Below, in pieces: positions 1 to 29,139 of a DNA stretch of 36,323 bases (position 1 is the stretch's first letter; each line of letters opens with the position of its first letter). The stretch spans positions 1-36,323 of the forward strand of contig JACCXN010000059.1 in the NCBI GenBank assembly GCA_013696965.1, in the 5' to 3' direction. The translations under genes were made by a program, and so were the position numbers. This DNA comes from Bacteroidota bacterium. GTDB taxonomy: Bacteria > Bacteroidota > Bacteroidia > JACCXN01. The notes under the pieces were generated by a model. It was not told the origin of the DNA, made no database searches, and saw only the letters and a list, made by a program, of their open reading frames with translations.

Positions 1-134
1 TGGCTATTTCATATGTGTATAATTTGTTTTTTAACTGTCATTTGGTATAGCCAGGTTATATTCATTAGCGTTTGTGAACGGTTCGTGCATGGCTATTTCA
101 TAGGTATATAATTTATTCGTTTTTTAATTATTCC
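1..134 (+). repeat. Interspersed ~90-bp repeat, one full and one partial unit
   Basis: The unit runs from TGGCTATTTCATATG through an AATTTGTTTTTTAA core, then GGTATAGCCA, GTTATATTCATT and a TTTGTGAACGGTTCGTGCA tail. A second, partial unit starts at about 90 and fades near 134. The same family occurs as four units at 18372-18748 and as one inverted unit at 26592-26688. The two edges of each unit (ATGGCTAT..ATATG and CATATGGTATAGCCAT in the better copies) are inverted repeats, so the transcript could fold into a hairpin with a T-rich or A-rich loop. The array is probably cut by the window edge. Confidence 0.85.
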
Positions 135-7218: not shown

Positions 7219-7577
7219 AAAAAAAGCCCTGGAAAATTTGAGGCCACTGAAAAAGCTAATCCCGAAGGGATGATACAAATATAGATTAATATTTTTAATT
7301 CCAGTTCAACCCCAGAGGGGTGAAATTATTGATTGTTTATTTTTATAACACCCCTTCGGGGGTTTTGGTTTTAATTGTTGTTATTTTCTGTAATCCTGTC
7401 ACCCTTCGGGGTTAGCTTTTTCAGTGGCCTCCTTTTTGGGGAGGCCTCTGAAAAAGCCTTTTTAATTAAAAAAAATAAAAAAGGGAGTAGATAAACTTGC
7501 GATTCTACTCCCTTTTATTAACATTTAAGTCTTAAAAAGACTTTTTTAGTGGCCTCAAAATTTCCGGGGCTTTTTTA
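7219..7577. repeat. Nested MITE-like inverted repeats
   Basis: Four copies of a GAGGCC(A/T)CTGAAAAAG-type end are arranged as inverted pairs. Left arm 7240-7273 (GAGGCCACTGAAAAAGC then TAATCCCGAAGGGATGA) is almost perfectly complementary to 7399-7431. A second pair is 7441-7462 with 7533-7556. The outer flanks AAAAAAGCCCTGGAAAATTT (7219 on) and AAATTTCCGGGGCTTTTTT (ending 7577) also pair, enclosing the whole block. CCCCTTCGGGG-type palindromes occur inside. There is no reading frame, so these look like two small non-autonomous elements side by side inside a third inverted pair. Confidence 0.75.
7482..7516 (-). terminator. Hairpin downstream of the DUF2911 gene
   Basis: AAAAGGGAGTAGA pairs with TCTACTCCCTTTT over 13 bases across an 11-12 base loop, with A-runs and T-runs on both sides. 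It lies about 80 bases after the minus-strand gene's stop and could terminate it. It also sits within the MITE-like block, so it may simply be part of that element. Confidence 0.5.
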
Positions 7578-10023: not shown

Positions 10024-10094
10024 GATCCTCCATCCTCCATCTTCCATCTTCCATCTTCCATCCTCCATCCTCCATCCTCCATCCTCCATCCTCA
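10024..10094. repeat. Heptanucleotide tandem repeat (CCTCCAT/CTTCCAT)
   Basis: About ten copies of a 7-bp unit, CCTCCAT with CTTCCAT variants, lie between the dehydrogenase terminator and the next gene. The 7-bp period is not a multiple of three, so the reading frames that cross it are artefacts. Copy number is likely to vary by slippage. Confidence 0.85.
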
Positions 10095-16520: not shown

Positions 16521-18748
<2,228 letters not shown>

Positions 18749-21697: not shown

Positions 21698-22076
21698 TTA
21701 TACTATCGCAATCATTTCAGCTGCCTTAATTGCAGTTGTTTTAACAGCCTCTACATTTACGCCTATCGAATCCCATGCAAGTGCAACTCCAATTCTTCTT
21801 GCCAGGAGAATTTCCCAAGAAAATATTTTTTTTCGTTGAGCCATTTTGATGAACCAGATTCCATTAGCTTGGATGGAGAAATAGTTGGGTGCATCACCAC
21901 AAATATGTGTGTATGGTCTGGATTACAGTAAATGGTATAGGTTTTACATTTTTGGTTTGTTACTATGCGCACATTACCTTTTCCAATTCGTCTCTGAATG
22001 TTTCTTTGATTAGGTTTTGCCGTCCTAGTACCGAAAAAACGAATTGAATGGATAATTGTCTAAATGTGTTTGCCAT
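21698..22076 (-). pseudogene. Decayed IS200/REP-associated (RAYT) transposase
   Basis: From ATG 22076 the frame gives MANTFRQLSIQFVFSVLGRQ and NLIKETFRDELEKV, then TAG. The next frame (from 21972) continues IVTNQKCKTYTIYCNPDHTH, IFVVMHPTISPSKLMES, GSSKWLNEKKYFLGKFSWQE. These are the N-terminus, the HUH metal motif (DHTH) and the SSKW..KFSWQ block of Y1/IS200-type transposases. After WQE the frame is lost again and the catalytic-tyrosine region cannot be recognised; only an unplaced 48-codon frame (21844-21698, MAQRKKIFSW..) remains. The gene is inactive. It lies next to a palindromic repeat block, as RAYT genes often do. Confidence 0.82.
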
Positions 22077-26591: not shown

Positions 26592-26688
26592 AATATGAAA
26601 TAGCCATGCACCGAACCGTGCACAAACAGCAATGAATATAACATGGCGAATTCCATATGACAATTAAAAAACAAATTATATACATATG
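26592..26688 (+). repeat. Single ~90-bp repeat unit fused to the PKD gene start
   Basis: This is the reverse complement of the units at 1-134, in the same orientation to its downstream gene as the array at thiC. It runs from ATATGAAATAGCCATGCACC through CGTGCACAAACAGCAATG, AACATGGCGAATTCCATATG and AAAAAACAAATTATATACATATG. The last ATG (26686-26688) is the start codon of the following gene. In repeat copies inside arrays that edge reads CATATGAAATAGCCAT; here it becomes CATATGAAAAACAG at the point where the gene begins. Confidence 0.9.
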
Positions 26689-28536
26689 AAAAACAGTTAC
26701 TTCTTATTTGCAATTTCATGCTTAGCACTGGTTGCGAATAGCCTTTTTGCACAGGTATCCTTTAATATGGATAATACAACAGGTTGCAAGCCCTTAACCG
26801 TAAGTTTTACCAATACAAGCTCAGTTGGTAATTATTATGAATGGTATATGGATGAATCTTTTTATTCCATAGAAAATCCCACACATACCTTTATGAGCAG
26901 CGGATCGTTTTATGTTAATCTTACGGTTTATGATACTACAAATGGCAACATGAATTATATTGGGAGTCATTATGATTTTATTTTAGTAATTGGTGCAAAC
27001 TTTTATTCGACCGATAGCATTTGTCCAAATGATGTAGTTTATTTTTATGCAGAAGGAAATAATTTAATCAGCCAGCAATGGTATTTTGGAGATGGAACTT
27101 CTTCCATGCAGAGTGGACCTAATCATAGTTATTCTGCTACCGGTACTTATGATGTGAAGTTAGTTATTGAAAGTGCAGAATGCGGAAAAGACTCTATAAC
27201 CAAACAAATAGTAGTTAGTAATACTCTTACTCCTTTTGTTTATTTTGATTATTACCCTTCCTCTGTATGTCCGGGAATGAAAGTAAATTTCTATGGAACA
27301 TCAGGGCAAAGTTATTTTTGGGACTTTGGGGACGGTACAACTTCTACATTGGCATCTCCAAAACATACCTATGCACAGACAGGTTTATACCAGGTTGCAT
27401 TTACCCTAACAAATGCATGCGGGAATTCTGCAACTGAAATAAGTTCAATAGAGGTTACAAATGATTATGCATTCTCTTCAAACCTTAATTTATTTGCTCC
27501 TGATTCAACTTGTCCGGGGCAGATGACTTCTTTTTATGTTGGAGCAGATGCAAACTTTGCTTTATATGAATGGAATTTTGGTGACGGAGGAATTCTTACA
27601 GGAAATGACAATGAGGTTTCATATAATTATCTTTCAACAGGCACTTTTAATGTAAGTGTGAAAATAACACAATGCAATAAAGATACTACCCTAAGCAGCA
27701 CAATCGTGGTTAATAACAATGTAACTTTAAATGAGAATGATGTGGACTTTGGGATTGCCGATGATAATGTTCATTGTCCTGGAGATAATATTCTTTTTTA
27801 TGTACAAGGAGGCAATAGTGCAGTATGGAATTTTGGAGATGGTGTTATTATGAGCACCCCATCTGATACTTTATTTGGATCAATTCTGATATTTTATCAC
27901 GCCTACACTGGAATTGGCACTTACAATGCCACTGTAACTATCACCAATGCATGTGGCAATTCTTACACAGATCAAATTGAAGTTGTAATTTCTAATGTGG
28001 CAGGTGAATATGAGCCTTATTTCGTCCTATTAAATGACCAAAATGAAGTAGAAACTTGTGAACCTGTTACTTTTTGGGCCAATGGCGGTAAATCATTCAA
28101 ATGGAATTTTGGTGATGGTTCTATAATAACGACCACTCAAGCACTAATTACACATACATATACAATTGCAGGAACATATGAGGTAACACTTACTGCCACT
28201 AATGGCTGTAATGATACTGCTACAGTTAATGATCAAATAATAGTCACAGGAACTTGTGTGGGGGTAAATGTTGTTTCTCACAATCTTGAACAGCTGGTAA
28301 TTTATCCAAATCCTGCCCAGGAAATACTAACAATTAAAGGTGATTTCGGAAATAAACCTGCTTTGTTTACCATTTACAATATGCTTGGAAAACAGATCAC
28401 TGCTGTTAAGTTTTCAAATGATACAAATTCTTTTTCAATTGATCTTAATCAATTAGGGTTAACAAGTGGTATTTATATGCTGGTAATGGAACAAGAAGGA
28501 CATAAACTTTTCAATAAATTCAGTGTTATTAGATAA
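26686..28536 (+). CDS. Secreted PKD-repeat protein with T9SS type A sorting domain
   Basis: This 616-aa protein begins with a signal peptide (MKNSYFLFAISCLALVANSL, cut near FAQ). About six PKD beta-sandwich repeats follow, recognised by WYFGDGTSS, WDFGDGTTS, WNFGDGGIL, WNFGDGVIM and WNFGDGSII, each with a later HTY/HAY and GTYxVxxT strand; the first copy (EWYMDESF) is diverged. The sorting domain starts VIYPNPAQEILTI and ends GIYMLVMEQEGHKLFNKFSV. It should be exported by the T9SS to the cell surface. PKD domains usually mediate protein or sugar contacts; no enzyme domain is seen. Its 5' leader and ATG lie in an interspersed repeat shared with thiC. Confidence 0.93.
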   Translation: MKNSYFLFAISCLALVANSLFAQVSFNMDNTTGCKPLTVSFTNTSSVGNYYEWYMDESFYSIENPTHTFMSSGSFYVNLTVYDTTNGNMNYIGSHYDFILVIGANFYSTDSICPNDVVYFYAEGNNLISQQWYFGDGTSSMQSGPNHSYSATGTYDVKLVIESAECGKDSITKQIVVSNTLTPFVYFDYYPSSVCPGMKVNFYGTSGQSYFWDFGDGTTSTLASPKHTYAQTGLYQVAFTLTNACGNSATEISSIEVTNDYAFSSNLNLFAPDSTCPGQMTSFYVGADANFALYEWNFGDGGILTGNDNEVSYNYLSTGTFNVSVKITQCNKDTTLSSTIVVNNNVTLNENDVDFGIADDNVHCPGDNILFYVQGGNSAVWNFGDGVIMSTPSDTLFGSILIFYHAYTGIGTYNATVTITNACGNSYTDQIEVVISNVAGEYEPYFVLLNDQNEVETCEPVTFWANGGKSFKWNFGDGSIITTTQALITHTYTIAGTYEVTLTATNGCNDTATVNDQIIVTGTCVGVNVVSHNLEQLVIYPNPAQEILTIKGDFGNKPALFTIYNMLGKQITAVKFSNDTNSFSIDLNQLGLTSGIYMLVMEQEGHKLFNKFSVIR

Positions 28537-29075: not shown

Positions 29076-29139
29076 TGCGCCCTTTGCGTGAACCCCTCTG
29101 CGCCCTTTGCGTGAAAACCTCTGCGCCTCTTTGCGTGAA
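29076..29139. repeat. Three direct repeats of TGCGCC(C)TTTGCGTGAA
   Basis: Units at 29076-29092, 29099-29115 and 29122-29139 are nearly identical, spaced 23 bases apart, and lie between dtd and the MazG-like gene. They stand out as G/C-rich in AT-rich DNA. No coding or binding role is evident. Confidence 0.8.

Follow-up and report, generated by a model that had tools for sequence, protein, structure and literature searches.

Start-codon-regenerating mobile repeats are a widespread family in Bacteroidota

IS200/IS605 elements, which are moved by the Y1 transposase TnpA, insert 3' of a short fixed target that matches their right-end cleavage sequence, carry subterminal hairpins, and follow the rule that an internal guide sequence pairs with their short target as well as their right end (PMC6006769). 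REP/REPIN sequences and their RAYTs represent high-copy, hairpin-bearing, non-autonomous repeats, some of them in tandem, and a REP is defined by a GTAG/GTGG tetranucleotide at the hairpin foot (PMC6006769). Prokaryotic MITEs, including the Rickettsia palindromic elements, are small non-autonomous mobile elements that sometimes lie within genes, and the TAACTGA direct repeats, short sequences present in some Bacteroidetes too, lie immediately upstream of the start codon (PMC4679880).

The repeat described here is very probably a small mobile element of Bacteroidota, non-autonomous, whose insertions lie precisely behind ATGAA (in occasional cases GTGAA) and whose own last five bases are ATGAA. 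It shares with IS200/IS605 the insertion 3' of a fixed target matching the right end, the subterminal hairpins and possibly an internal sequence pairing with the cleavage site, but it is only ~90 nt long and without a gene, has ATGAA as both target and right end, and bears its pairing box 3' of the left hairpin instead of at the 5' foot. Unlike REP/REPIN elements, it has a strong start-codon placement in one orientation, its consensus (ATGAAATAGCCAT..) lacks GTAG/GTGG at the hairpin foot, and no RAYT gene flanked by the repeat was found at the loci scanned. In contrast to MITEs, it occupies the same target in nearly every copy and supplies a start codon rather than an in-frame peptide; moreover, the terminal inverted repeats of DDE-type MITEs were absent from its aligned ends (ATAGCC.. 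and ..ACATATGAA). The TAACTGA repeats differ in being heptamer arrays without hairpins, a reported target regeneration or a start codon inside, and no such heptamer arrays were found in the unit sequences. As judged from sequence, the element is best placed near the IS200/IS605 derivatives and REP-like elements, while lacking the defining features of REP/RAYT systems and MITEs. The literature searched (an open library) yielded no description of it, and the repeat family has apparently not been described previously.

Repeat units at the starts of thiC and a PKD-domain gene

The window, that is, the whole stretch of 36,323 nt analysed, belongs to a genome of 3.86 Mb in 106 contigs (G000). The first-pass annotation had claimed that thiC and a PKD-domain gene begin within the edge of one shared ~90-nt repeat, and the sequence bore this out: ACAAATTATATACATATGAAA was located directly at the start of the PKD gene (ATG 26686-26688, + strand) and of thiC (ATG 18374-18372, - strand), in the orientation of the gene at both, and array-internal copies read ...ACATATGAAATAGCC. 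Both start codons are considered real because Pfam identified ThiC and a PKD/Por_Secre_tail protein (as well as ThiS) among the window gene products and because thiC of G007, a genome of another family, has the same N-terminus (MKKDKTP). In the box names below, X is the base preceding the start codon and Y its partner base, not a pyrimidine. The features are as follows.

26595..26599, + strand: left ATGAA of the insertion at the PKD gene, a copy of the target site marking the 5' junction (reads ATGAAATAG)
26600..26690, + strand: full unit of 91 nt, inserted at the start of the PKD gene (105.9 bits with model R1)
26603..26608, + strand: 5' arm (GCCATG) of HP1, the left hairpin, from the fold and the covariation test
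26642..26647, + strand: 3' arm (CATGGC) of HP1, from the fold and the covariation test
26654..26659, + strand: internal CATYTG box (here CATATG), pairing with the right end
26683..26688, + strand: CAXATG box (here CATATG), pairing with the internal box and including the PKD start codon
26686..26690, + strand: right-end ATGAA, the 5 nt with which the element ends and the PKD gene begins
26686..28536, + strand: host gene, a secreted PKD-domain protein with a Por secretion tail, 616 aa
18744..18748, - strand: left ATGAA of the thiC array, ~14 nt past the thiS stop
18648..18743, - strand: thiC array unit 1, the most degenerate and farthest from the gene
18558..18647, - strand: thiC array unit 2
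18469..18557, - strand: thiC array unit 3
18370..18468, - strand: thiC array unit 4, with the CCCGATAAATCGGGATGAC hairpin variant, ending in the thiC start
16521..18374, - strand: thiC, with its start codon from array unit 4
1..129, - strand: a further array of one or two units, cut by the contig end

The 91-nt unit at the PKD gene has the sequence ATAGCCATGCACCGAACCGTGCACAAACAGCAATGAATATAACATGGCGAATTCCATATGACAATTAAAAAACAAATTATATACATATGAA. The thi operon has the order thiS-[4 units]-thiC, and a TPP riboswitch (RF00059, 71.6 bits) was detected upstream of thiS (19124-19027, - strand), so the repeat array sits within a riboswitch-controlled operon. Elsewhere, the window harbors a 7-bp unit, ATCCTCC, in 9.9 tandem copies (10025-10093), a 23-bp tandem repeat, TGCGCCCTTTGCGTGAAACCCTC, in 2.7 copies (29076-29139), and an inverted repeat pair of 36 nt and 92% complementarity (7220-7576) with another inverted copy at 7402-7431.

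Insertion target, mobility and spread

Sequence comparison showed precise insertion behind ATGAA, with ATGAA regenerated and a copy of it at both junctions. The boundary had earlier been read as ATGAAA / CATATG, with CATATG as the insertion target; across genomes the ATGAA part stood but the next base was free (A 167, T 20, G 5, and C 3), and CATAT proved to be element sequence, the target being ATGAA or occasionally GTGAA. Within the genus of G007, an empty site was identified at an sdhC-like gene, named from its N-terminal sequence: the unit is present in G007 (...AAAGCTACTAATT[ATGAAATAGCC...ACAC]ATGAATCGTTTT) and absent in its congener G089 (...AAAGCTATTGATT-ATGAATCGTTTT, aligning to ATGAA on both sides), where the flanks join exactly at ATGAA and the gene is 86% identical over the query CDS. 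Three further congeners (G150, G149, and G053) were also without the unit at this site.

In addition, three interrupted genes were found in which joining the flanks at the pentanucleotide restores the reading frame, namely a Y1 transposase gene in G000 contig C42 (...KQLI before and NEIMENPQESRKE after the junction, as against ...KQLINAIKENPQESRKE in an intact paralog), a 164-aa ORF in G048 contig C7, and a phosphatase-like gene in G000 contig C29, whose target is GTGAA and whose join was read manually, the script's own join having covered a longer stretch. These interruptions lie in a non-start codon phase, and the target is therefore a DNA word and not a codon, the element being found also in intergenic DNA and within genes in any reading phase. 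The empty site and the interrupted genes agree with IS200/IS605 in displaying precise insertion at a fixed short target with no extra duplication. Identical flanking pentanucleotides in any phase, with frames restored on joining the flanks, would also be expected if the unit were skipped at the RNA or ribosome level, by splicing or a byp-like bypass between identical ATGAA copies, so that intragenic insertions were silent; this is highly improbable, as the intragenic cases number just three, one of them in a transposase gene, and a unit at a start site needs no bypass, the right-end ATG restoring the protein.

Each new unit of the mobile element brings a fresh ATGAA, and tandem arrays can therefore form. 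In G000, every array read opens directly behind a flanking ATGAA and every unit terminates in ATGAA, with arrays of one to six units at ~60 places. A blastn search gave 106 unit matches in this genome, and a pattern search gave 136 right ends (≤3 mismatches) and 132 left ends (≤2 mismatches), corresponding to ~130 copies, a number not due to chance because reversed control patterns gave only 0 or 1. Decayed units tended to be farther from the gene (17 arrays of at least three units; mean of 35 bits for the first and 52 for the last), a weak trend in which some arrays are cut by contig ends. Arrays also mark assembly breaks at the ends of the G000 contigs C94, C99, C98, C42, C84, C60, and C20, and C26 and C60 have one nqrB-like left flank in common; short-read assemblies break at arrays, and single junctions may therefore be chimeric.

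Beyond this genome, a covariance model detected units in 33 of the 149 genomes of the class, and an exact degenerate pattern matched at least 120 stretches in named genomes. Among the matches listed, units occurred in Algoriphagus, Cyclobacterium, Belliella, Mongoliibacter, Lunatimonas, Labilibaculum, Breznakibacter, Geofilum, Natronoflexus, Sphingobacterium nematocida, Parapedobacter, Marivirga, and many Bacteroidota MAGs, and the sole record labelled outside Bacteroidota was a MAG called Atribacteria, which is probably mislabelled. Start-codon-regenerating mobile repeats are thus a real and widespread family. Carriage by phages was considered and rejected, as just one of 2.9 million viral contigs matched; this contig (IMG/VR, 11.4 kb, L359) matched the right-end pattern of the unit.

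Hairpins, covariation and a possible transposition route

The left hairpin HP1, GCCATG/CATGGC in G000, shows compensating changes elsewhere (e.g., GTCAT/ATGAC and TAACCA/TGGTTA), with a mean stem of 5.31 compared with 4.86 (sd 0.09) for shuffled partners. For the pairing of CATYTG with CAXATG, X and Y were complementary in 58 of the 67 copies outside G000 and G048, where shuffling predicts 19, and in 115 of the 132 copies from named genomes; in the counted alignment, 49 double-changed cells were observed against 15.0 (sd 3.1), a value reached in 0 of 500 shuffles. These shuffle tests are inflated by relatedness, yet all four Watson-Crick combinations are present, most of them in several genomes. 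Subterminal hairpins are thus found at both ends, as in IS200/IS605, given the covariation of HP1 and the right-end stem. The box that pairs with the right end is internal, 3' of HP1, and the left TTC/GAA pairing is nearly invariant; in the folds of L093, L065, and L360, the internal-box TTC is additionally paired with the GAA in the left ATGAA. Pairing of the guide with the base preceding the target was rejected, since the left -1 base showed no covariation with the CATYTG base, whereas the right -1 base did. A conserved Met-Lys-stop upstream ORF was likewise rejected, the left end reading ATGAAACGAGCC or ATGAAATCAAGC in other genomes.

About half of the G000 units, including the last at thiC (18468-18370), are of a variant type, CCCGAT..ATCGGG, that lacks the CATYTG box; in these a TCCCGATAAATCGGGATGAC hairpin takes the place of the internal box and the start codon is no longer enclosed by a stem. 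A longer unit variant with a GCTTTAGCATTCTTGAGTTCCTTAAAGGAAAAATTAAAAACGAATAAATTATATACATATGAAA module was observed in the arrays L031, L032, L040, L044, and L047, and some genes begin directly at this module (C32:60027, C26).

A covarying pairing that encloses the start codon is what a cis-regulatory RNA leader would show, with hairpins controlling translation, CAUYUG:CAXAUG pairing that hides the start codon, and duplication as the means of spread, and such a leader would also fit the persistence of units between species at galE and a dehydrogenase gene and the minimum-energy RNA folds of single units, many but not all of which contain both hairpins. This explanation is nevertheless unlikely: units also occur in intergenic DNA and within genes, no common theme links their host genes, the box that would sequester the start is missing from about half of the G000 units, and none of the Rfam covariance models matches the unit.

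Under the reading as a mobile element, transposition would use a single strand, as with Y1/HUH transposases. This strand, when folded, would carry the left hairpin, and the TTCCATYTG box could pair with the GAA of the left target and with the right-end CAXATG, bringing the ends side by side; the cut behind ATGAA would be made by an enzyme supplied in trans. Each of the 11 unit-bearing genomes checked, G000 among them, had Y1 genes. Within ±1.5 kb, no Y1 gene was framed by units at the loci scanned; those read are flanked by other palindromes, including the Y1 gene adjoining the galE unit in G007 and G089, which has palindromes of its own. No long autonomous copy was recovered from unpaired left and right ends among the matches listed for G000 and G048, and no mobilizing enzyme tied to the unit was found. 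A Y1 (IS200-like) transposase gene remnant also lies in the window (21796-22005, - strand), one of 12 such matches genome-wide.

The small, hairpin-bearing repeats and the ubiquity of Y1 genes in the genomes checked could also reflect an ordinary REP/REPIN element mobilized by a resident RAYT, and the Bacteroidetes RAYT subclass 2.6 has been reported to have 'atypical secondary structures' (PMC6006769). This is rather unlikely, however, because the unit is without the GTAG/GTGG foot of reported REPs, the Y1 genes read are flanked by palindromes other than the unit, and one Y1 gene in G000 is itself broken by a unit. A tentative possibility, of rather low probability, is a start-codon-specialized element whose target, right end, and start-codon stem have coevolved, which can harmlessly enter even essential genes and set their translation, and whose TTCCATYTG box guides both ends in a novel transposition system.

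Placement at start codons and quality of the leader

A gene is normally destroyed or silenced by an insertion at its start. The present element restores its target, which belongs to the start codon context, and can therefore land on essential genes, replacing whole leaders; hosts with a unit at the start include the essential or core genes pyrH, asnS, and uvrB, names taken from the N-terminal sequence and not from a family search. Where the target is a gene start (ATG-AAN, encoding Met-Lys or Met-Asn), the full coding sequence is kept, the leader and start codon come from the right end of the element, and the former start persists just upstream as a dead ATG-AAA-TAG. Such an upstream ATG-AAA-TAG, a former start site, is a trap for annotation, and the element provides Bacteroidota with a natural supply of new 5' leaders.

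An ORF of at least 45 aa begins at the right end of 36 of 54 arrays in G000 and 30 of 44 in G048, about two thirds in these two richest genomes, and of 33 of 35 in the few-copy genomes, in which nearly all copies lie at starts. The background, i.e., other noncoding ATGAA words at candidate starts in the same loci, was 23%, 41%, and 29%, respectively, when counted generously. The enrichment is modest in G048 (30/44 vs 0.41), and the binomial p values (1e-11 for G000, 2e-4 for G048, and 6e-16 for the few-copy genomes) are rough, as copies in one genome are not fully independent and a simple ORF caller was used. Of 132 matches in the named-genome sample, 87 are at the beginning of an ORF, and many others precede another unit. 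The proposal of an element inserting at starts is therefore essentially right, in that genome-wide copies favor start codons in one orientation. The first-pass annotation had also pointed to relatives lacking the repeat but carrying the same leader as a case that would speak against it; in the relatives without the repeat, the same ATG follows a different leader (sdhC, thiC). For thiC, the G007 gene has its N-terminus at ATGAAG behind a short ordinary leader, and the thiC start codon is thus older than the repeat. The enrichment may have arisen because start-site insertions were tolerated and then locked in as the only leader of the gene, while coding insertions would have been purged and intergenic insertions left to decay.

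Bacteroidota are a phylum without Shine-Dalgarno sequences, and the A/T-rich leader had been proposed as a portable translation-initiation module spread by selection for good initiation. In 108 host-gene copies, A occupied -11 to -13 at frequencies of 0.89-0.94 and -6 at 0.66, whereas -3 was C in 0.96. In Flavobacterium johnsoniae, A at -3, -6, -12, and -13 favors initiation (PMC6847099), so that the first of these positions goes against the module, the conserved -3 C being the stem base that pairs with the G of CATYTG, and the others agree with it. In addition, not all copies are located at starts, and the start codon is enclosed by a covarying hairpin; accordingly, the module idea holds in effect, the right end serving as leader by necessity because the host genes have no other, but as a function it is quite improbable. 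The leader is A-rich but does not appear optimized for translation, and its conservation seems to fit the hairpin better.

Several loci carry units in more than one lineage. The start of a lysine-pathway-like dehydrogenase gene bears units in L189 and L212 (family f6) and in L113 (family f21), and that of manC in L190 (f6) and L072 (f1); these units may go back to a common ancestor or to independent insertions, and ancient retention or a functional role could account for these occurrences across families. At galE, the right half of the unit is near-identical in G007 and G089, and the inner hairpin has been replaced.
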